A DNA stretch of 64,000 nt from assembly GCA_009887095.1 (NCBI GenBank), contig QXYC01000015.1, positions 1 to 64,000 on the forward strand. Direction: 5' to 3'. Of this stretch, positions 48,173 through 60,401 are shown piece by piece (position 1 is the stretch's first letter; every line of letters starts with the position of its first letter). A program made the position numbers and the translations under genes. The notes beneath the pieces are model-generated. The model did not search any database and was not told where the DNA came from. It was given only the letters and a program-made list of their open reading frames with translations. The DNA comes from Candidatus Poseidoniales archaeon (lineage in GTDB: Archaea; Thermoplasmatota; Poseidoniia; Poseidoniales; Poseidoniaceae).

Positions 48173-48279
48173 CCTTCACATTCGTGCATCAAAAGGTGCC
48201 GGTGAAGGTGAAGGGCTAAATGGTACCGAGCCTTGTCTTGCGTGTGAACACCGAAGCCTGCTTCGTTTCCCGTCCCGCC

Positions 48280-49305
48280 ATGCGCAGGGACGACCGAGCG
48301 GTGAGCGAGGTTTTGGGTGTCGTCATGTTGTTGGCAATGGTCATCACGATTATGGGCGGAGTGTGGATTTTCCTCAACCCATACCTTACGGATTTTGAAG
48401 ACAACACAAACTGGAACAGTGCCGTCGGCATCTCTGAGCGATTCCAAGACCGGATCGATGTTGCAGGAGCGGCCCCTGAGGGCACCGGTATCCGTCACAC
48501 ATTAGCACTTCAATCAACGTACATCCGTCCTATTGACAAAGTGGAAACTTGGACGATTTCAGCGGATGTCGTGTCGAACGAACAGATTACAATCGAGCAC
48601 CTAAATCTCACCGCAGTGAGTGTGAAAGCTGTCAACGAATCCGCCCGTTCATTGACCATCGAAACGCCTTATGGCGTTGAGAGTTCAAGTTTCGATGGAT
48701 CCCACGAAGAAGTGATCGTGCGACATAATTCATCGAGGGACCATTGGATGATTGTTACCGTGTACGATGAAGATGCAACGCCGTTGCACAAAAGCTTGAG
48801 TTACGCTCTCTCCGGCATCCAAATCACCACCTCACTGGGTCAAGGTGAACACGAGTTAGCACTCATGAACAATGCGAGGGTCGAACACTTCCCGAATGAA
48901 CCATGGGCGGTTACATCCTATCCGAGCGTATCGCTTGATCGACTTGTCGATGGCGAATACAGGCTCTCAATGTTGCTTTCCGATGTAACGATTAATGGTT
49001 CGCTGGGGACAGGAAATAGCATCGGCATGAACATGATTTCTCTTGGTCCAATGACCCTCTTCACGGGCGAAGCATACAACTTGAGATTCACCGTACTTAA
49101 CGAACTCAATGACTTGATTACACCGCAATACCACGACCACTGGCTCGATGAATACAATCTCAACCGGGCATCTGGAACTCTGGACACATTTGTTGGCTAC
49201 GGCCCATTCGAACGTGCCAGTGGTGCTGACGGATTCACCGTGGACACCCATGGCGTCCCGTTATTCCTCGAAGTCGATGTTCAACGAGTGGAGGTAAGCC
49301 GATGA
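48280..49305 (+). CDS. type IV pilin-like protein 1
   Basis: A 341-residue protein beginning MRRDDRAVSEVLGVVMLLAMVITIMGGVW, the archaeal class III signal peptide and H-domain. Cleavage by archaeal prepilin peptidase is expected after DR or thereabouts, with the hydrophobic helix forming the fibre core and a large soluble head of about 300 residues. The start is chosen by comparison with the two downstream genes (10-11 residue leaders). An in-frame ATG at 48220 with GGTGAAGG upstream is an alternative and would give a longer leader. First of three genes joined by ATGA overlaps. The length is large for a pilin; a minor pilin or adhesive head is likely. Confidence 0.78.
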   Translation: MRRDDRAVSEVLGVVMLLAMVITIMGGVWIFLNPYLTDFEDNTNWNSAVGISERFQDRIDVAGAAPEGTGIRHTLALQSTYIRPIDKVETWTISADVVSNEQITIEHLNLTAVSVKAVNESARSLTIETPYGVESSSFDGSHEEVIVRHNSSRDHWMIVTVYDEDATPLHKSLSYALSGIQITTSLGQGEHELALMNNARVEHFPNEPWAVTSYPSVSLDRLVDGEYRLSMLLSDVTINGSLGTGNSIGMNMISLGPMTLFTGEAYNLRFTVLNELNDLITPQYHDHWLDEYNLNRASGTLDTFVGYGPFERASGADGFTVDTHGVPLFLEVDVQRVEVSR

Positions 49306-51533
49306 GGTCAATGCTTCAGCGAGATGAGCAAGCAGTATCTGCAGCAGTCGCAACGGTGCTGATGTTTGGAGGCGTGCTCTCAATTATTGCCATCATGATG
49401 GTGTCGATGATTCCTGTCATCGAGGAACTGGAAGGTTCCGTCGAGCGACACGACATGTCGGCACAGATGTCATTGCTCGCCCACCAAACTTCTGCGTTGA
49501 GCGAGAAAGGTATGCCGGGTGACTCAACATCCATCGAGCTCATCCCAGTTGATGGAAGCCTTGAGTGGCAGCACCTGCAAAGTGGCATGTGGTACGCTGC
49601 TACATGGCATGAAGACATGTCGTTCAGAATGCGAGGTGCTTTGGATTTCGATGATGAACTCGAGGTCCGCCACCCTGAAACTGCCAACACCGCTCTTTGC
49701 ATCGACGACCTCCGCCTTGGACCAAACAATCCTTACTACTACACCATCCCTGCTTGGGCGGACAAAGTACTGTTCACTGTGGCACCAGGGCTTGCCATAC
49801 CTCTGGGGCCTGTCGATGTCGAGGTGCTCGAGACCGGGGAAGTCACCGATACAATCCAACTTCGAGTTGATGGCATGCATGAGATGAACGCTTCGAGCCA
49901 GGAGTTGTTCACGCTTGCATCGAGCCATGAGCTCAATGTATTCGTGGAGCGAGGGATTGGCGGTAGCACGCTTGTCAGTCCGAATGATGCAAGCCCCATT
50001 GATGGGACCGGTCGATCATGGTCAGTGCCTCTGCCTGCCGGCACCAGCCAACTGCACCTCATTGGAGACGACGCAAACCAAATCAGCATCACTGATGAAA
50101 GCACGACCGCCACATATTATGCCCTCCCAAGCGGGCAAAACCAAGTTGGAGTTTCATTCACTCAGACGATCGTTCGTGAGGCTGCGGGCGTCATCCATGT
50201 ATCATCAAGCGATGCTTCTCGTCTCATGGTCCAAACCACCACAACCGAGAACAATGGCATCACGCCAATCCCAAGTACCGATGGTCAATTTTTGGGCCAT
50301 GCATTCGTCACCCCATCACTCGACGGGGAAATGGTGTTCACCAATCCGAGCGATGCTTCGGTGACGGTCACATGGCGAGGTGGAGGCGTTTCTGTCGCAC
50401 CTCAGCAACGCACAACGTTCGATTGGCCACCCGCTGGTTCAAACGGTGCACCAATCGTGGACGCTGAAGGCGATGTCTTCCTCACTTGGCGGGCTGCACC
50501 AAGCGGTGAAGGAGCGAACACCTCTGGAGTGCATGTCCTTGCAGCAGACGATACAGGCGCCCGAACCGGCCAACTCCACACCTTCCACGTCGATGCCTCA
50601 ATCCATGCCCAAACGGTTCAACTCATGCGAGCAGGGCAACTGGTCGATTACAACCTCACAGGAGCTACACAAGCAAATGGCACCACATTCAACGATGACG
50701 GAATGACCATGTTAAATCTCAGCGAAGGAACATCCAACCTCGTGGTCACCGACGGTGACACCCTCAGGGTCACCAGACTCAGCGGTGAGAATGGATTGCA
50801 TCACTTGCAACATGATGGCGAGGAGCGATGCTTGTCAATCGGCGTCGAAGCAAGTGGCTGGATCGCAATGTCGCTCCCTTGGACGACCATGAGTGGGCGG
50901 GGCGAAATTGATGTGAAAAACGCATGGAGAGCAGGGACACACCCATCGAGCATGCAAATCACGCTCATCGGTGGAAACGATCGTTCGACACATGCAACAA
51001 TCGGAACGGTCTGGGGCTTCCACCTCTCTCGATTGGCCTATGGATTCTCATCGTCAATCCTCGGAATGGAAGTTGCCTACTCCGGAGGCGCCGTGCTCAC
51101 CAACCATCCAGAATTCGAGGCCTTCGTCGTCGTACCACCGAGCGACCGCGGCGGCCCTGGCCCACGGTTTGCCGCAACCATACCAGCGCTCCATCCGACG
51201 GCTGACAGCACCACAGGTGCTGGCTCAATGCATCTGGACATCGAACTGGTTGATCGATCTTCACTGGCATCTACGACGGCCTATGAAATCAGACGAGGTT
51301 GGTCAGAACCCTACGGCACTGCAATCGCCACAGCATCTGCTGATGGGCTTGAGTCGAGTGAAGATTGGACCATCTATCCGGGACGGATTGATCTGCTCAC
51401 TGATTATGTGGGATGGGTCCCAGACCCATCTTACGGGACAAGTGAGGCAGTGTGGCACACGAATGGTGAAGCTATACAGTTCACACTGCAACTCTCATCA
51501 CTCAATGTTCACATGACGGAGGCGATTTCATGA
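49302..51533 (+). CDS. type IV pilin-like protein 2, very large
   Basis: A 743-residue protein with a pilin-like N terminus (MLQRDEQAVSAAVATVLMFGGVLSIIAIMMVSMIPVI), where AVSAAVATV plays the role of the processed H-domain start. The soluble portion, over 700 residues, is beta-rich and contains no recognised domain. Its size is far above that of ordinary pilins, suggesting an adhesin displayed at a fibre tip, or a pseudopilin-like anchored surface protein. Overlaps the upstream stop by ATGA and the downstream start by ATGA, so translation is coupled and stoichiometry probably fixed. No ATPase or membrane platform gene is in the window. Confidence 0.75.
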   Translation: MRSMLQRDEQAVSAAVATVLMFGGVLSIIAIMMVSMIPVIEELEGSVERHDMSAQMSLLAHQTSALSEKGMPGDSTSIELIPVDGSLEWQHLQSGMWYAATWHEDMSFRMRGALDFDDELEVRHPETANTALCIDDLRLGPNNPYYYTIPAWADKVLFTVAPGLAIPLGPVDVEVLETGEVTDTIQLRVDGMHEMNASSQELFTLASSHELNVFVERGIGGSTLVSPNDASPIDGTGRSWSVPLPAGTSQLHLIGDDANQISITDESTTATYYALPSGQNQVGVSFTQTIVREAAGVIHVSSSDASRLMVQTTTTENNGITPIPSTDGQFLGHAFVTPSLDGEMVFTNPSDASVTVTWRGGGVSVAPQQRTTFDWPPAGSNGAPIVDAEGDVFLTWRAAPSGEGANTSGVHVLAADDTGARTGQLHTFHVDASIHAQTVQLMRAGQLVDYNLTGATQANGTTFNDDGMTMLNLSEGTSNLVVTDGDTLRVTRLSGENGLHHLQHDGEERCLSIGVEASGWIAMSLPWTTMSGRGEIDVKNAWRAGTHPSSMQITLIGGNDRSTHATIGTVWGFHLSRLAYGFSSSILGMEVAYSGGAVLTNHPEFEAFVVVPPSDRGGPGPRFAATIPALHPTADSTTGAGSMHLDIELVDRSSLASTTAYEIRRGWSEPYGTAIATASADGLESSEDWTIYPGRIDLLTDYVGWVPDPSYGTSEAVWHTNGEAIQFTLQLSSLNVHMTEAIS

Positions 51534-52005: not shown

Positions 52006-54531
52006 TTAACGACCCATTACAGCGGCGTGAACCTGCGCTTGAACTTCTTTCATACGAGATTTGGCACCGAGTTCTCTGAAGACAGCCAATGCACGTTGCA
52101 GGTATTCCATCCGCCGTGGTTTGTCCGGCGCAACGCCTCCAAGCCGGGAAAGAAGCTCACCAATTTGCATCCGCAAATCATTGGCTTCGGCAATCACGAG
52201 TGCTTCTCGATAATGTTCCATAGCATCTTCAGCCCGACCTGCGTCTTGGACAACTTCGCCGAGTAAAATTGTGATTTCCACGAGGGACAGCAAGTCGCCA
52301 GCCACGCTCATTGTTTCGAGAGCGGTGGAGTAGTGGTGCGACGCAACATCAGCGTCGCCCACTTTCGCATAGTATCGACCAAGCACCGCTTGTGCGCGAG
52401 CGTGCAGGACTGCATCGGAACCACCATCGGTTCGTTCGAATGCCTCGAGGGCGTGGTCACGGGCACGGTCAATTTCGCCTAGGTCGAGGAAAGAACGGGC
52501 AAGAATCAATTGCGAACCAATCAAGTCCATCCCGTCTGATTCCTTGAGAATGGCCTCGACTTCGCCATATGCTTCGAGGGCCTTTGTACGATCGTTCTTC
52601 CTTCGCAACAGGTAACCCATGTTATTGTAGGAACGGGCTGCGCCTTTGGCATCTTCCAGTTCGATGAACTTCTCGAGTGCTTCGCGGTGCATGCTTAGCG
52701 CTTTGTCAGCGTTGCCTTGTTTGAGCGAAATATCTGCAAGTGCAGCAAGAATTTCTGCTTCCACCAATGTCGAATTGGATTTACCTGCCAGTGATTGAGC
52801 CTCCGAGAAGACACCCTCTGCTTCGGAAAACCGACCCAACAGGACAAGAACTTCGCCTTGCAGTTGACGAACTCGCATGTAGATGCCAGCCTCAAGATCT
52901 GAGCCATCAACACTCTCCATGAGCGGCAGAAGTTCCATGTGGCCCTGTGCGACGAGGTTGCGTCCATCACCAGCAATCAATTCCGATGCCATTTCATGGT
53001 CGTCTGAACGGATGAGGTGGTGAATGTGTTCAATGGTTAGGTCTGCATTTTTAGGTTGCTTTGCATACCATGAACAGCACTTGGAGTGGAATGACTTGCG
53101 TGTGGCTTCGTCAAGACTCCGGAGCAAGAATTCGCGGATTAAATCGTGAACGTCGTATGTTTCTGTGTCGGCTTGACGGGCTAGGCCTTGTTCGACAAGC
53201 GCATCGAGTTCGTCTGTGTCAAGGCCTTGTTCAGCAAGTGCGGCGAGTTCAACTGGTTCGCGATAAATTGCCAGTGCAGAAAGAACACGCTTTTGCTCCG
53301 CACTCAATTTTGAAAAGATTTCAACCGTGACATAATTTTCCAATGTCTCGTGGAAAGCTCCCGCCGATGCACCTCGATTGATAAGTTCCAGAACCAGAGG
53401 ATGGCCCCGAGATAATCCGTGAATGTGCAGCCATTGCTCATCAGCCAATTCATCGAAGCTGCTGAGAAGTTTCCTTCCAGCATCTGAATCGAGTCCATCC
53501 AATGGAAGAACCAAACTTGCGATTCGACCTTCTGCATCCTTCGTTGGTACCACAGGCTTGAACGATCTGGAAAATAACACAAGGGCTATTTTTTCTTCAC
53601 TGCCAAGAAGCGCTAACGACATTGCTTGGAAAGTCTGATGAAGCGTCACGTCGGCGACCTTGTGAAAATCGTCGATCACAATGAGTGATGGTGTGCCCTC
53701 AAGCGCATCAACGAGCAACCGTGCTGCGTCTGCCGGCTGTGGAACCGGCGTGGCTGCAAGGTAATCTGCAAAAGTGGAGTCACCGATGTTAGCCAGCCAA
53801 TCTGCAACTGATTCAAAGAACGATCGAGAACCTTCCCAGTCCTGACAGCGATGGTAGAGTAAATTTCGGCGGTGCATAAACCGCTCAATGAGCTTCGAAG
53901 CAACGGTTGTTTTGCCAATGCCCGCAATTCCGGGAATAAGCAAGGTCGTCGCACGAGCCTCAATCAAATTCGCCATGTTGTCGAGTTCTTTTTCTCGCCC
54001 ATAGAAATGTCGCAAACGAGGAAGATCTCCCAATGAGGTCACCAGTTGCTTCTCCACGTGCTTGGAGAGGTCCCGCTCGATGAGGTCTGCAGAAAGTGTT
54101 CGAGCATCAAGCACGCAGTTGTCATCCATGTATCGAATGATATCGACCGGGCGCATCGAGAACGGAAGTTTTTCGTTGACTTCACCAAGCGTGGAATGGA
54201 CCGTTTGCCCATCTTCCAAGATTGCTCGAAGGGGGAAGGAACGAAGGCGTCGCCATGTTTCCTCACTGAGATTCATACCAGGATCTGTCAGAAAGTACGC
54301 TTTTCGCTTTCGTGAAACGCCTTTAACATGAGCTTGCCGTTCGATGAGAAGCCCTTGGTCCTTCAGGCCGGCAATGGCTCTTGGTACATTTGAACGTGCA
54401 ATTGCCACAGCATTTGCAATGCCCATTTGGGACAATGCAAACGGCACTTCGACACTGTTCTTGAAGTCGGTGTAATCGAGCAGGTGGAGGAGAATTCTCT
54501 CCTGTACGCCGGGCTTGGGATGAACCGCCAT
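52006..54531 (-). CDS. wHTH-STAND ATPase-TPR signalling protein
   Basis: An 841-residue protein of the MalT-like layout. It has an N-terminal winged helix (about 8-85: GVQERILLHLLDY, then SNVPRAIAGLKDQGLLI and KAYFLTDPG), a STAND NTPase with P-loop GIAGIGKT (201-208) and Walker B IVIDD (284-288), a helical winged region, and TPRs from about 580 to 830 (LGRFSEAEGVF, ALADISLKQGNADKALSMH, NNMGYLLRRKNDRTKALEA, VLGRYYAKVGDADVASHHY). Such proteins switch between ADP and ATP states on ligand binding to the TPRs; the wHTH suggests DNA binding. It may control neighbouring surface genes; that is inferred from position only. It follows the beta-helix protein gene by 57 bp and converges with the pilin operon. 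Confidence 0.88.
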   Translation of the reverse strand: MAVHPKPGVQERILLHLLDYTDFKNSVEVPFALSQMGIANAVAIARSNVPRAIAGLKDQGLLIERQAHVKGVSRKRKAYFLTDPGMNLSEETWRRLRSFPLRAILEDGQTVHSTLGEVNEKLPFSMRPVDIIRYMDDNCVLDARTLSADLIERDLSKHVEKQLVTSLGDLPRLRHFYGREKELDNMANLIEARATTLLIPGIAGIGKTTVASKLIERFMHRRNLLYHRCQDWEGSRSFFESVADWLANIGDSTFADYLAATPVPQPADAARLLVDALEGTPSLIVIDDFHKVADVTLHQTFQAMSLALLGSEEKIALVLFSRSFKPVVPTKDAEGRIASLVLPLDGLDSDAGRKLLSSFDELADEQWLHIHGLSRGHPLVLELINRGASAGAFHETLENYVTVEIFSKLSAEQKRVLSALAIYREPVELAALAEQGLDTDELDALVEQGLARQADTETYDVHDLIREFLLRSLDEATRKSFHSKCCSWYAKQPKNADLTIEHIHHLIRSDDHEMASELIAGDGRNLVAQGHMELLPLMESVDGSDLEAGIYMRVRQLQGEVLVLLGRFSEAEGVFSEAQSLAGKSNSTLVEAEILAALADISLKQGNADKALSMHREALEKFIELEDAKGAARSYNNMGYLLRRKNDRTKALEAYGEVEAILKESDGMDLIGSQLILARSFLDLGEIDRARDHALEAFERTDGGSDAVLHARAQAVLGRYYAKVGDADVASHHYSTALETMSVAGDLLSLVEITILLGEVVQDAGRAEDAMEHYREALVIAEANDLRMQIGELLSRLGGVAPDKPRRMEYLQRALAVFRELGAKSRMKEVQAQVHAAVMGR

Positions 54532-54588: not shown

Positions 54589-57500
54589 TCACTGGCCAGG
54601 CTTGTAATTCGGGTCTGGAACCCAGCTGTTGCTGGTTTCATCCCAAAGCCATCCTGGGTGAGTGGATGCAGCCGGCACTGCTGTTGTTGCCGCTACCGGA
54701 GCGGCAGCCGCAGCCGATGCGATGGCTACTGGCTCTTGGCGTGCTTTTGCCCATGCATACGGATCTTCTTCAGCCGCTGTTCCCGGAGTGTCGGTCATGA
54801 CGTCTTCTTCAATTTCCTCGTATTCAACTTGGAAGAAGAACGCACCTGCGCCGAGGAGTATGAGAACACCGACAATTGCACCGATGATGAGGAAGAGGTT
54901 GCCACTATCTGATTCAGCGGAATCGGAACTCAACTGGAATTGAGTATCTGCTGTGGTACCTGGTGCTGAGTATACTTGACCATCCATTTCAAAGATGACC
55001 TTTGCATTGTCCGCTCCAGACATTTGGTTTTGAGCGATGTCCATGGTCCAAGTTCCATCCGCTCCAACACGTGTCGAATTCAATCGAACACCCTTTGCGT
55101 CATCGAACCGTGCAGCGACCATGCTGTTTGGCAATCCTTGACCGCTGAAGGTTGCTGGATCGTTTGCAGATACAAAGCCGCTGTCCACACGTTCTGCACT
55201 GAATGCAACGGACACGACGACGATGTTGACCTTGTAGGAGTAGGCCACTGAATCGTATGAGTCGCGTGCCTCGAACATTAATCCAACAAGGGACCAATCT
55301 GCAATCACAGACGTTGGTTGAACCCACGGAGGGTTGTAGGTTGCAACACCTTTGGCACTAATTGAGACATAATCCGCATAGAAATCGTCATCGAGGTTTG
55401 TTTGTTCGTCAAAGACATCGAACAGCAAATCATTTTCCGCCTCACCGGTACCATCAGGGTCACTGAAGTACTGGGTCAAGTCGATGGTTGCGCCGTTACC
55501 ACATCGGTCGATTGCATTCGAATTTGCATCACAGAAGATGGTGATTGTCCCAACCCATCCTTCTTGGTCAAAGATTGGAGCGATGTTATCGGCATCCGTT
55601 GGGTTGTCGATTGTGATACGAATTCGACTCTCAGTCGAGTAATCCTCACCATCGTAGGCACGGATCACAAGTTCGTATTGTTGGTCGTGGATTAACTTGG
55701 AAGTGTCCCAAGCAACAGCCCAAGCACCGTTCGGAGCGAAGTTGGTCACAGGGTTTGGTCCATTGTTCAACATGAGACCGCTTGCGAGGTCCTGAATGTC
55801 GATTTCGACGCGAGTGACTTGGCCGTCATTGTCCCTTGCCACACCTTGAATCAAGTATTCATCTGAGGCACGGATGACATCACTTGGAATTGGTTGACTG
55901 ACTGAAACAAACGGAAGTGCGTTGTCGTTATCAATGGTGAGGGTACGGGTTTCCGCATTGCATACACCGACGAGGTCGATGCAGAAATCGCTGTCAGCCG
56001 CCCAAACTTGGAACGTGTACGTACCAGAGTCTAATTCTTCGAATTGCCAGTCATAGGACCAAACAGTGGAACCTTCAATGGCGAAATGTGAGCTGTAGTC
56101 ATTTGGACCAGAGATATCAAACCAAATTGATTGGATATCACTTCCCCATGTTCCAGAGTATGGGTCGCTGGCGGTTCCAGTGAAGGCAACCTTTGCGTTT
56201 CCATGGGTGGTGCCGTCGTTTGGTGTTTCCACTAAAATCGTAGGCGCCACAAGGTTGAGTTTGTACTTACGGACTTCGATTGGCGAGTACTCAAGTCCGT
56301 CATAGGATCGGACTCGGAAGGTAACATCGCCTTCGCCTTCTGGGTGAGCGGACATGTCCCAATCAAACGACCATGACTTGAACGGGTGATTTGCAAGGGT
56401 GATCTCACCTCCAGCACCGGATGTGTCAATGGCCGAGTACCAGTCTTGTGATCCAGGAGGTTGAACTTCGACTCGCTTAATCAGTCCGAATTGCTTTTCA
56501 TACGCAACAATATCCAACGGATACGGTCCTGCGATTCCGTCCCAAGCAGTCCCTGTAAGGGTCACTGTGGTCGCAAAAGATGCACCGTCTCCTTGAGAAA
56601 CATCGACGCTTGGCTTGAGGTTGTCGAGATTGATGACCTCATCGATGCCACCGTCAAGAACGATATCGAAGTCTTTGGTACCTTTTCCAAACTTGAAAGC
56701 ATTCACGCTGTAGAATGGAAGTTCTCGGTTGCCTGCGTCACAATTGGAGGTATCTTCACCAGTTTGAGCTGCGTCAGCATCGTCGACGAAGGTGTCGCCA
56801 TCGTTGTCGTAACCGTCGGAGCATGTGTTCTCATCCATGAATTCAGTAATGCCTGGTGCGATTGTCACTTCAACATTCGATTCGCCAACAAGATGGTTCC
56901 AGTTTCGGTCGATGTAAAAATCACTTGGGAGCGAGATCTCTGGAGTGAAGCCAAACGCATCGGTTTGCAGGGTGTAGAGTGGCAAGCCAGTTGCATCGCT
57001 GATCACAACGGTTGCATCGGCGACGTTGTTGTTTTGAGCTTTGACTTGATAACGGACAAGCTCGCCTTCCCGGACTTGGCTTCCCCAAGCTGAATTTTGG
57101 TTCTGAACATGGACCTTACTCGCATCAAAATTTTGGAGGTCTGCGTAGGAGAACACCGTCGAGTTGTCGACCACTTCGAGGGCCATTGGCATGAAAGCAG
57201 GTGGCAATGCGGCAGTGGTTGGCACTTGCAAGCACTCATCGAGAACATATGGGCATTCTGCGCCCAACCATTGGAGGTTGACAGGGAAGAGTTCGCCTGC
57301 ACCTGGGTCAGGCATGTATTCAGATTGCACTGTCACTCGTGATTCAGTGATGTTGTACACCTGACTTGCGTTGCTGTAACTGTTTCCAGAGAAGTAGGCA
57401 ATCGAACCGTACTTTGTTCCGTAATTGTCGTCATACATCGAGATGTTTGCTGCAAATGCGCCGACTTCGATGGTGTTGCGTTGTGCGTTGACAATACCGC

Positions 57501-58971
57501 CCTTGATTCGAATTCCATCTCCGCCATTGTTCACCACGGTGTTGTCGTAAAGAGTGGCAGAGGACATGAAGACGTGAATGGCAGGACAAGCGAAATCCCC
57601 TCCATACATTTGAGAGTTGCATGTACCAGAGTTGTTGGAAATTTGGTTGTTCGCAAGGTAAAGACGAGCGGCTGTTGGTGTTGGGACGTTCCATCCTTGG
57701 TCGTTGAAATGGTATTCACCGATAAGCACTGCTTCCTTAGCCGTGTCCTGAATGGTGTTGTTTTCTGCGACGACATCGGATGTACCGTAAATCCACAATC
57801 CATTCCATCCGCCAATTGGGCCGATGACGTTGTTGTGAATAGCAACGGTTGATGAGCGAATTCCGAATCCTGAAGATTCACCAGCGCCCGATATTACATT
57901 GTCCCGGGCAACCACAATTGCATCATCATACGCAGTGATCCCTGCTCCTTCTTCGGTAGTGATGATGTTATTCTCGATGTTGAGGGTGTGACGGATGGTT
58001 CCGGTTTCTTTGTGTGAGTTTGTGTCAATTGCGTTGCACTTTACATCGATCGTGGAGTTTGACAGCCATCCAGAGGTCCCTTTCAGAAACACTCCAAACG
58101 AATTTTCTTGAACATCAAGATTGTCGAGGTTGATGTACGAGTCTTCTATGAACATGACGGTACGGCCGCCGCCCTGACTGCTGCAATCTGGTTCCGTACT
58201 TCCAGTGAGCTTGGAGTTTATGACGTTCACAGTTGCTAGAATTCCTGCACCTGCGTTGTATGCACGGACTGCGGATGCATCGTATCCGTTGCCGTCGACT
58301 CCATTCTCAAACTCGGAATCTTGGAGGGTTGGGGCGGCAAAATCAACTGCGAGGACATTTGAGGTATTGATGTCCTTGAATGAGAGTCCTGTAGCGATGA
58401 TTGAGGAACCATCGAAGACAATGGCGCCGTATTGAACTTGCTGAAGGGAGGGCACGTAAATTGGGTATCCATAGGCATCTTGCATGTAGAGGTAGTTCAG
58501 CGACGTAGCGCTCGTTGATTGATCAACAGTGCTTCGAATAATCAAACCCGACCCGCAGGCCGCATCGGTGTTGGTGTAGGTGCTGGAGCCGTTGACCGCA
58601 CATCGGCCAGTTCTGTTCCAATCCGCTTCACTTTGGGGCTTTTGCCAAATCATTCGAGCCGAGTTCGATGAGGACCCCCCGCTGGCACCGCAAGCAGTGT
58701 CTGCCACGCAGATAGCGCCTTCAACATCGATGAAGGCTCCTACAGGCAAGTTGATGTTGGTTCCTGCGTTGATGATGAGCTTTGAACCTTCAGCCACAGT
58801 GATGTCGCCGTTAAGGTTGATTGTGCCGGTCCATGTTTCCGTCCCGGTGATGGTTCCGGAGGTTGTTTCGTTCACAGCAGATGCAGATGGCAAGGTGATC
58901 AAACCAGCGAGGCTCGAAAGCAACAGAAGGGCAACTAACGATAGGCTTTTTCGGGATGTATGTTCAGACAT
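54589..58971 (-). CDS. giant anchored surface protein with parallel beta-helix
   Basis: A 1460-residue protein from ATG 58971, opening a signal peptide (SRKSLSLVALLLLSSLAGLITLPSASA). Next come a short LTV-type entry (GTITGTETWTGTINLNGDITV) and a long parallel beta-helix (roughly residues 80-600), with repeated N-N-x-I and IxxN segments such as NIENNIITTEEGAGITAYDDAIVVARDNVISG. A CSDGYDNDGDTFVDDADA calcium-type element and cadherin/Ig-like modules follow. One membrane segment (SGNLFLIIGAIVGVLILLGAGAFFF) leads to a cytoplasmic tail with Ala-rich stretches and a C-terminal WLWDETSNSWVPDPNY motif, different from the GLPxGWT tail. Adhesion or polysaccharide binding is a reasonable inference. The promoter region carries TGATAC boxes. 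Confidence 0.85.
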   Translation of the reverse strand: MSEHTSRKSLSLVALLLLSSLAGLITLPSASAVNETTSGTITGTETWTGTINLNGDITVAEGSKLIINAGTNINLPVGAFIDVEGAICVADTACGASGGSSSNSARMIWQKPQSEADWNRTGRCAVNGSSTYTNTDAACGSGLIIRSTVDQSTSATSLNYLYMQDAYGYPIYVPSLQQVQYGAIVFDGSSIIATGLSFKDINTSNVLAVDFAAPTLQDSEFENGVDGNGYDASAVRAYNAGAGILATVNVINSKLTGSTEPDCSSQGGGRTVMFIEDSYINLDNLDVQENSFGVFLKGTSGWLSNSTIDVKCNAIDTNSHKETGTIRHTLNIENNIITTEEGAGITAYDDAIVVARDNVISGAGESSGFGIRSSTVAIHNNVIGPIGGWNGLWIYGTSDVVAENNTIQDTAKEAVLIGEYHFNDQGWNVPTPTAARLYLANNQISNNSGTCNSQMYGGDFACPAIHVFMSSATLYDNTVVNNGGDGIRIKGGIVNAQRNTIEVGAFAANISMYDDNYGTKYGSIAYFSGNSYSNASQVYNITESRVTVQSEYMPDPGAGELFPVNLQWLGAECPYVLDECLQVPTTAALPPAFMPMALEVVDNSTVFSYADLQNFDASKVHVQNQNSAWGSQVREGELVRYQVKAQNNNVADATVVISDATGLPLYTLQTDAFGFTPEISLPSDFYIDRNWNHLVGESNVEVTIAPGITEFMDENTCSDGYDNDGDTFVDDADAAQTGEDTSNCDAGNRELPFYSVNAFKFGKGTKDFDIVLDGGIDEVINLDNLKPSVDVSQGDGASFATTVTLTGTAWDGIAGPYPLDIVAYEKQFGLIKRVEVQPPGSQDWYSAIDTSGAGGEITLANHPFKSWSFDWDMSAHPEGEGDVTFRVRSYDGLEYSPIEVRKYKLNLVAPTILVETPNDGTTHGNAKVAFTGTASDPYSGTWGSDIQSIWFDISGPNDYSSHFAIEGSTVWSYDWQFEELDSGTYTFQVWAADSDFCIDLVGVCNAETRTLTIDNDNALPFVSVSQPIPSDVIRASDEYLIQGVARDNDGQVTRVEIDIQDLASGLMLNNGPNPVTNFAPNGAWAVAWDTSKLIHDQQYELVIRAYDGEDYSTESRIRITIDNPTDADNIAPIFDQEGWVGTITIFCDANSNAIDRCGNGATIDLTQYFSDPDGTGEAENDLLFDVFDEQTNLDDDFYADYVSISAKGVATYNPPWVQPTSVIADWSLVGLMFEARDSYDSVAYSYKVNIVVVSVAFSAERVDSGFVSANDPATFSGQGLPNSMVAARFDDAKGVRLNSTRVGADGTWTMDIAQNQMSGADNAKVIFEMDGQVYSAPGTTADTQFQLSSDSAESDSGNLFLIIGAIVGVLILLGAGAFFFQVEYEEIEEDVMTDTPGTAAEEDPYAWAKARQEPVAIASAAAAAPVAATTAVPAASTHPGWLWDETSNSWVPDPNYKPGQ

Positions 58972-59007: not shown

Positions 59008-59015
59008 GATATAAC
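59008..59015 (-). promoter_or_regulatory. TATA-like box of the beta-helix protein gene
   Basis: On the minus strand this reads GTTATATC, centred about 40 bases upstream of ATG 58971. The usual archaeal spacing gives a transcription start near 58985 and a leader of about 14 bases. The TGATAC box array begins about 26 bases further upstream, the position expected for an activator next to the BRE/TATA complex. Confidence 0.5.
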
Positions 59016-59040
59016 ACTGCGCCTCTATTGCCACCATTCG

Positions 59041-59110
59041 TGTATCAATTGGGCCTCGATTGTATCACTAATAAGAGAGTGATTGTATCACCTAATAACC
59101 TAAAGTATCA
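59041..59110 (-). promoter_or_regulatory. four TGATAC boxes upstream of the beta-helix surface protein gene
   Basis: On the plus strand GTATCA occurs at 59042-59047, 59062-59067, 59085-59090 and 59105-59110, with spacings of 20, 23 and 20 bp (about two helical turns each). Two of the copies share a longer core: ATTGTATCACTAATAA at 59059-59074 and ATTGTATCACCTAATAA at 59082-59098. Minus-strand reading: TTATTAGGTGATACAAT. The array lies 70-139 bp upstream of the start codon and just upstream of a TATA-like box. A regulator binding one helical face is the natural reading. Confidence 0.7.
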
Positions 59111-59130
59111 AACTTAACGGCAGGGCTACA

Positions 59131-59147
59131 GAGAGGTTTTGCCTCTC
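59131..59147. terminator. stem-loop downstream of the anchored subtilase
   Basis: GAGAGG and CCTCTC flank a TTTTG loop. It begins 34 bases beyond the stop of the subtilase gene at 59181 (minus strand) and lies between that stop and the TGATAC array. It probably helps separate the subtilase transcript from the beta-helix promoter. Six base pairs only; no T-tract follows. Confidence 0.35.
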
Positions 59148-59180
59148 AGTCACCCATTGCATTGGAAAAACGGCGCGTCG

Positions 59181-60401
59181 TCAACAGGTTGGAGCCGTTG
59201 ATGTTACTTCGTTAATCCAGTCCAGCGCTCGTAATTCCCCGTATCCGGTTTGGTCGTCATGCAGTCCATCATCATGCAACGGATTGACCGAGTTCATGAG
59301 TGCAATTTTGATGACATCAATGCACGAGCCGTTGCTGGTTTGTGTTGGCTTGTATTCGGGATGTTCTTCTAAGAGAAGAGAAAGTGCGGCTGTGACAAAC
59401 ACTGTTGCATCTGAGGTACCGGTGCTGGAATACCATGCATTGTTGCTTCCTGTGCTGATAATTCCAACGCCTGGAGCAACGACTTCGGGTTTTTGATTTG
59501 GATGGTCCCTTCTTTCCCCACCCTCGAGGTTTTGTGATCCCTTCGATGAATTAACCCAAACCTCCTGTGTGATTGTGGTGGCACCCACTGTGATGACACG
59601 AGGTATGTTGGCGGGGACTGATACGAGTCCATCATCACCCGCACCACCATCGTTCCCTGCCGCAGCTACAACGAAAATTCCTGAATCAACAGCCCTGCGT
59701 GTGGCCGATGCTGTTGCTCCTTCCCTGTTTGCATCGAGGTTTTGTTCACCGCCCAGTGACAACGAAATGATGTCTGCTTCAAAGGTATCTTGGCACCAAC
59801 GAATTGCTTCTGCTACCGTTCGTTCATCACCACTGTTGCCCCCATCTGGGTCAGCTCCGAGGGCGGCCGCTACCCCGAGTGTAACCCCTGGTGCGGCTCC
59901 AAGTTGATGCCCGTCTGCCACTAAAATCCCAGCCATAAGCGTACCATGGGCGATCAAACCGTAATCAATCGGAACTGATGAGGCACCTCGGAGGTCCTTG
60001 AACGTCAGATCGACTTCTGCAAGAGCCTCATGCGTGCTGTCTATTCCGGTGTCAACCATGCAAACTCGGACTCCAGCGCCCGTCAATCCTGCGTCCGAGG
60101 CATCTGAGAGTTGTGTGACTTCGTTTGCCCATTCGGAAGTTGGTAAGTTCAACTCGACAATCAAGAGTCCAGAATTCCAAATGGCGAACATGGTCGATAT
60201 GAACAAGGCGAAGATGAAACCATTGGCAACAAACGCTCGTTGTCGCCTCGATCGGAGTACTGGAGCTGCCTCCAGTGGAGCCCAACCTGTCACCTCTGCC
60301 CGCCACGCTCCTTGGAAGCCAACCGCTGCAGGGTCGATAGCAGACAGGATCCGAGCATCTTCCGGTTCAGGGAGATACTCAACATGTCCTAATTGATCCA
60401 T
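59181..60401 (-). CDS. membrane-anchored subtilisin-like protease
   Basis: A 406-residue S8 protease. The N terminus is cytoplasmic (about 1-58, with a basic LRSRRQRAF stretch) and is followed by one uncleaved membrane helix (about 59-83: GFIFALFISTMFAIWNSGLLIVEL). The protease domain then lies outside: Asp117 in MVDTGID, His152 in AHGTLMAG, Asn250 in AAAGNDG and Ser330 in GTSDAT. The catalytic set is complete. Unlike the giant subtilase it has no long accessory tail. It may process or shed neighbouring surface proteins; that is inference. Strong ribosome-binding site (GGAGGTG, 4 bases before ATG). Confidence 0.9.
   Translation of the reverse strand: MDQLGHVEYLPEPEDARILSAIDPAAVGFQGAWRAEVTGWAPLEAAPVLRSRRQRAFVANGFIFALFISTMFAIWNSGLLIVELNLPTSEWANEVTQLSDASDAGLTGAGVRVCMVDTGIDSTHEALAEVDLTFKDLRGASSVPIDYGLIAHGTLMAGILVADGHQLGAAPGVTLGVAAALGADPDGGNSGDERTVAEAIRWCQDTFEADIISLSLGGEQNLDANREGATASATRRAVDSGIFVVAAAGNDGGAGDDGLVSVPANIPRVITVGATTITQEVWVNSSKGSQNLEGGERRDHPNQKPEVVAPGVGIISTGSNNAWYSSTGTSDATVFVTAALSLLLEEHPEYKPTQTSNGSCIDVIKIALMNSVNPLHDDGLHDDQTGYGELRALDWINEVTSTAPTC

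Follow-up and report, generated by a model that had tools for sequence, protein, structure and literature searches.

Conserved pairs of TGATAC boxes as a candidate upstream operator of a beta-helix surface-protein operon in Marine Group II archaea

INTRODUCTION

In archaea, activators that recruit TFB or TBP occupy sites which stop some 20 bp short of the TATA box, just outside the BRE and in near-constant helical phase; Ptr2, which has been described as working from upstream sites, is an Lrp-family protein. Other described sites of this kind are those of EarA in front of the archaellum (arl/fla) operon of Methanococcus and Thermococcales: a short motif, TACATA or A(C/G)(C/G)TACA(T/C), is repeated up to three times at a fixed nine nucleotides upstream of the BRE, and the activator, of winged-helix type, is thought to recruit TFB to this surface-structure operon (PMC10665913). 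The Ptr2 sites of Methanocaldococcus likewise lie upstream, and the basal factor recruited from them is TBP (cited in PMC10665913). In bacteria, STAND activators of the MalT or AfsR type use direct repeats by the promoter, with a STAND-TPR protein in the operon, and act on the sigma-dependent RNA polymerase (AfsR: PMC10936776).

The array of boxes which is the subject of this study resembles each of these systems in part. As with EarA, a short repeated motif stands at a nearly fixed distance upstream of the BRE and TATA box of one surface operon. However, the motif, TTGATAYTWTTA, does not match that of EarA; the copies form pairs, with 19-20 bp within a pair and whole-turn gaps of variable length, instead of standing as one to three adjacent copies; and the target is a beta-helix protein together with a STAND gene rather than the archaellum operon. 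The array differs from the Ptr2 sites in motif and in number of sites. With MalT and AfsR it has in common direct repeats by the promoter and a STAND-TPR protein in the operon, but the promoter is archaeal and neither the STAND protein nor its DNA-binding domain tracks the array across genera.

Marine Group II ranks with the most abundant archaea of surface seawater and, to our knowledge, has no cultured representatives. A limited search of the literature found no described operator in this group; start-site data have been published (PMC5069720), and attachment is reported as an axis of difference between Poseidoniales genera (PMC6461757). No more than the sequence is needed to read the array, which is linked to a surface-protein operon and comes with a candidate regulator that can be named. 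In the way its spacing has evolved, nature has in effect run a test of helical phasing at an archaeal promoter.

RESULTS AND DISCUSSION

Four boxes upstream of a surface-protein operon

The window, i.e. the whole stretch of 64 000 nucleotides that was analysed, comes from Ca. Poseidoniaceae (Marine Group II); its nearest named relatives are Poseidoniaceae/Poseidoniales records, including CM001443.1. On the minus strand, an S8 protease gene (59181-60401) is followed, after an intergenic gap, by the gene for a beta-helix/Ig-like surface protein of 1460 amino acids with a C-terminal membrane segment (54589-58971; Pfam Beta_helix and Big_7) and, 57 bp further, by the gene for a protein of 841 amino acids made of a winged helix, an AAA/STAND NTPase and TPR repeats (52006-54531; Pfam). 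Orthologues of the beta-helix protein were found in 58 of 60 relatives, and the order of the two genes is kept in both families studied, f1 and f2, wherever one contig spans both. The STAND gene would be co-transcribed with the beta-helix gene and is a probable second target. The beta-helix frame is also opened by a start codon at 59037 but, because this codon sits upstream of the TATA box, the ATG at 58971 is the likely start. Beside the STAND gene and convergent with it, the plus strand encodes type IV pilin-like proteins (48220-51533; DUF7289, with a weak Pilin_N match). In one relative (L098, G035:C66:24196-26712), the STAND gene contains one in-frame TAA, which is either a sequencing error or the mark of a broken gene.

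The gap contains four copies of TGATAC on the minus strand (59105-59110, 59085-59090, 59062-59067 and 59042-59047). The corresponding boxes, all on that strand, form a distal pair (box 1, 59099-59111, TTGATACTTTAGG; box 2, 59079-59091, GTGATACAATCAC, 20 bp from box 1) and a proximal pair (box 3, 59056-59068, GTGATACAATCGA, 23 bp from box 2 and present in the family f1 promoters compared; box 4, 59036-59048, TTGATACACGAAT, 20 bp from box 3). The putative TATA box, TTATAT (59009-59014, minus strand), lies inside GTTATATC at 59008-59015 and begins 33 bp downstream of the first base of the last TGATAC. Directly upstream of it is a stretch conserved in orthologous promoters (GAGGCGCAGTG, 59015-59025, minus strand), which is the probable BRE region, assigned by position only. 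The preliminary description had reported four TGATAC boxes at 20, 23 and 20 bp spacing beside a TATA-like box and the ATG at 58971, and all of these elements were located and confirmed. It had also pointed to longer near-copies of 16-17 bp (TTATTAGGTGATACAATC and TTATTAGTGATACAATC): they are present, but are peculiar to the species of the window, and relatives share only a box of about 12 bp.

TGATAC alone is not enriched across the window (23 occurrences versus 17.6 expected); the unusual feature is its clustering. When the 143-bp intergenic stretch (59038-59180) was shuffled 20 000 times, four copies on the same strand were never obtained. Pairs of the form TGATAY-N12-15-TGATAY occur three times in the window, where 0.03 would be expected; the array accounts for two of them and the third (at 56114) falls within the beta-helix gene.

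Conservation of the boxes and of their spacing

We compared 44 distinct orthologous promoters of family f1, anchored on the TATA box. The promoter-proximal pair, boxes 3 and 4, is kept in all 44, and most keep the four boxes; the same boxes precede the TATA box (mostly GAGGCGCAGTRTTATAT), and the sequence between them has drifted. Conservation upstream of the orthologous gene in close relatives had been singled out beforehand as the point on which the repeats should be judged: the array persists throughout the genus and, at altered spacings, in a total of 12 genera belonging to both families (genera are designated g1, g2, etc.). The 168 boxes of 42 complete arrays give the consensus TTGATAY(T/A)(A/T)TTA, i.e. 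TTGATAYTWTTA; boxes had been selected by a rule that included the GATA core but not the flanking preferences (T at +6 in 72% of the boxes, T at +8 in 74%, and A/T-rich sequence before TGATA). The box could be read as an imperfect dyad, TTRATA-N-TATYAA (TTRATA-Y-TATYAA).

Seven genera of family f2 (g2, g3, g4, g6, g8, g10 and g12) are without the array, and those sampled form one clade on the STAND tree. Their promoters (L113, L114, L118, L119, L120 and L125) often have a small palindrome, of the GAGCCTACGGCTC type, directly before a CCCTATGATTAAATC box; it could be the terminator of the protease gene or another operator. We may speculate that this clade replaced the array by a simpler promoter.

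The two boxes of a pair are 19-20 bp apart in every lineage seen, slightly under two helical turns. Between pairs, the distance is 23 bp in most of genus g1 and in g14, g16, g18 and g19, 33 bp in g15 and related loci, 12 bp in g9 and g17, 13 bp in g5 and 35 bp in g7. Genus g13 has the proximal pair only, and one f1 subclade (L025-L034) keeps this pair with at most traces further upstream. The largest array seen, in G062 (g11; L376, L301), has six boxes in three pairs, spaced 19-13-19-34-19 before the TATA box. From the last box to the TATA box there are 32-34 bp in most lineages, 45 in g5 and 55 in g9. Since the spacings change in steps of about one helical turn, the phase seems to be under selection; differences of about whole turns across lineages are what characterizes a helically phased multi-site operator. 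Clustering of phase at 10.5-11 bp, with near-equal states collapsed, gave p values of ∼0.008 for the pair distances, 0.03-0.06 for the TATA distances and about 2-3×10−4 for both together, all of which are indicative, because the states were picked after looking and few of them are independent.

The preliminary description had taken the array for an operator lying on one helical face and controlling the beta-helix gene and perhaps the STAND gene. The first of these claims is strongly supported by boxes conserved amid drifted spacers in 12 genera, and we regard the array as almost certainly an operator of some kind. The one-turn steps between lineages argue for the single face, and the nearly fixed distance to its TATA box for control of the beta-helix gene. 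It is plausible that the STAND gene is controlled as well, given the common strand, the 57-bp gap and the order kept in relatives.

Mode of action

The scheme that we propose is that of an upstream operator dedicated to the beta-helix surface-protein/STAND operon and most likely activating. A winged-helix transcription factor would bind each TTGATAYTWTTA box, probably as one dimer per box since the box appears to be an imperfect dyad, and the occupied boxes would be stacked in pairs along a single face of the helix. The stacked pairs, some 20 bp away on the upstream side, would act on the BRE and TATA box and aid the binding of TFB and TBP. The proximal pair would be the essential unit; the further pairs (none, one or two) would probably raise occupancy or sharpen the response. 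If the identity of the binder is left aside, we consider it probable that the array works as an activating operator from one helical face. Activation rather than repression is deduced from position alone: the boxes stand upstream of the BRE and TATA box as the EarA sites do, which favours an activator.

One alternative is that the array is the operator of a repressor, and that TBP and TFB, or the polymerase, are blocked by the bound factors or by a filament that extends from the boxes. Repression is common among archaeal regulators, and multiple phased sites would be compatible with a repressing nucleoprotein complex. However, the usual archaeal repressor sites overlap the BRE, the TATA box or the start site, whereas the boxes stop some 20 bp short of the TATA box, overlap none of the three, and are kept in phase with the TATA box; a repressor thus appears rather improbable.

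Candidate binding proteins

For the binding protein of the proposed activating operator, our leading candidate, put forward tentatively, is a winged-helix/TerB protein encoded elsewhere (G000:C16:69575-70612). It is a separate protein with a winged helix homologous to that of the STAND protein (hhalign probability 98.7) and a TerB-like C-terminal part. It was found in 11 of the 12 array-bearing genera: g1, g5, g7, g9, g11, g13, g14, g15, g17, g18 and, as a short form of 229 amino acids between the same neighbours, g16. In g19 the array is present and the gene is not detectable in G378, a genome 90% complete; it is also missing from several genomes at 60-78% completeness. None of 109 genomes from the seven array-less genera has it, the weaker matches listed there being mostly the STAND protein. 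As the array-less genera form one clade, the match between protein and array represents one evolutionary event, and the array-less genomes are also smaller; for these reasons we call the protein a leading candidate only. The promoter of its own gene has no paired boxes, only scattered single matches. In searches against PDB sequences, the only similarities, to SlyA/MarR and TerB, were weak. Other Thermoplasmatota families also have relatives of the protein. A bolder reading, namely a modular, enhancer-like archaeal operator in which entire pairs appear, disappear or shift, mainly by whole turns, at the one promoter under control, and which is read by a previously undescribed winged-helix/TerB factor family shared across Thermoplasmatota, is possible, though we would advance it with some doubt. 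Another factor altogether could well be the one that binds the boxes.

The STAND protein itself could also be considered. Like MalT or AfsR, it would form a signal-driven oligomer which binds the direct repeats and switches on its own operon. In both families its gene comes next in the operon, the protein has a winged helix at its N-terminus (pLDDT of 48 in the AlphaFold model, too low to be of use), and about one array target per genome is what would be expected of a local regulator. But the seven f2 genera that are without the array keep the STAND gene and, in the six that were aligned, the winged-helix core, including RSNVPRAI, is nearly unchanged with respect to array-bearing lineages, which points to a different DNA target. 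Because of this near identity, the STAND protein was demoted from best candidate binder; we find it unlikely in that role, and autoregulation of the operon unlikely as well.

Search for further targets

Scanning for paired boxes had been recommended in the expectation of a regulon with the same spacing. Triple and pair patterns were run over 61 genomes, and a weight matrix over 1.6 Mb of CM001443. Of 60 related genomes, 19 contain three boxes in series, nearly always as a single occurrence located at the beta-helix promoter; the reversed control gave none. The pair pattern gave mostly one or two matches per array-bearing genome, nearly all at this same promoter, against four control matches in total. 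In the 1.6 Mb of CM001443, the top-scoring pair cluster is the array. The searches having thus returned almost only the beta-helix promoter, the idea of a regulon was rejected, and the array would be a dedicated operator, the number of targets per genome being essentially one. The operon encodes a surface protein and a sensor-type NTPase, and it is reasonable to see in the array a switch reserved for a surface trait. The other matches to the array pattern in f2 are isolated or, for a large part, belong to a conserved run, GATAC...GTGATAC...GTTGATATA, which is probably coding.

Another possibility is that the boxes are recognized by some other DNA-binding or nucleoid protein of wide action, the beta-helix promoter being only its strongest site. 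Some isolated strong boxes do exist in other intergenic stretches of CM001443. Yet intergenic single sites in this genome are not clearly above the permuted-matrix controls and paired sites away from the beta-helix promoter are close to the control level, so that a protein of this sort seems quite unlikely. Finally, we considered chance, a recent tandem duplication, which the 17-bp near-copies in the species of the window resemble, and a place in the terminator of the preceding protease gene, whose stop codon lies about 70 bp before the array. All three are next to impossible, since the boxes persist in 12 genera where the rest of the sequence is unrelated, are anchored on the TATA box, and never arose as a set of four in the shuffles.

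A few sites outside the operon deserve mention. The isolated strong intergenic boxes of CM001443 (G060), at 66565, 1559750 and 155333, are possible further sites of the same factor. The pair TGATACTYAKAGGCCCCATTGATACTAA is common to two genomes of the array-less genus g8, away from the operon (G048:C18:28310-28337, L215; G049:C11:16738-16765, L214), and the pair TGATACTTATSTATCATGTTGATACTAA is common to two g1 genomes at another locus (G022:C38:1005-1032, L213; G032:C60:10253-10280, L212).
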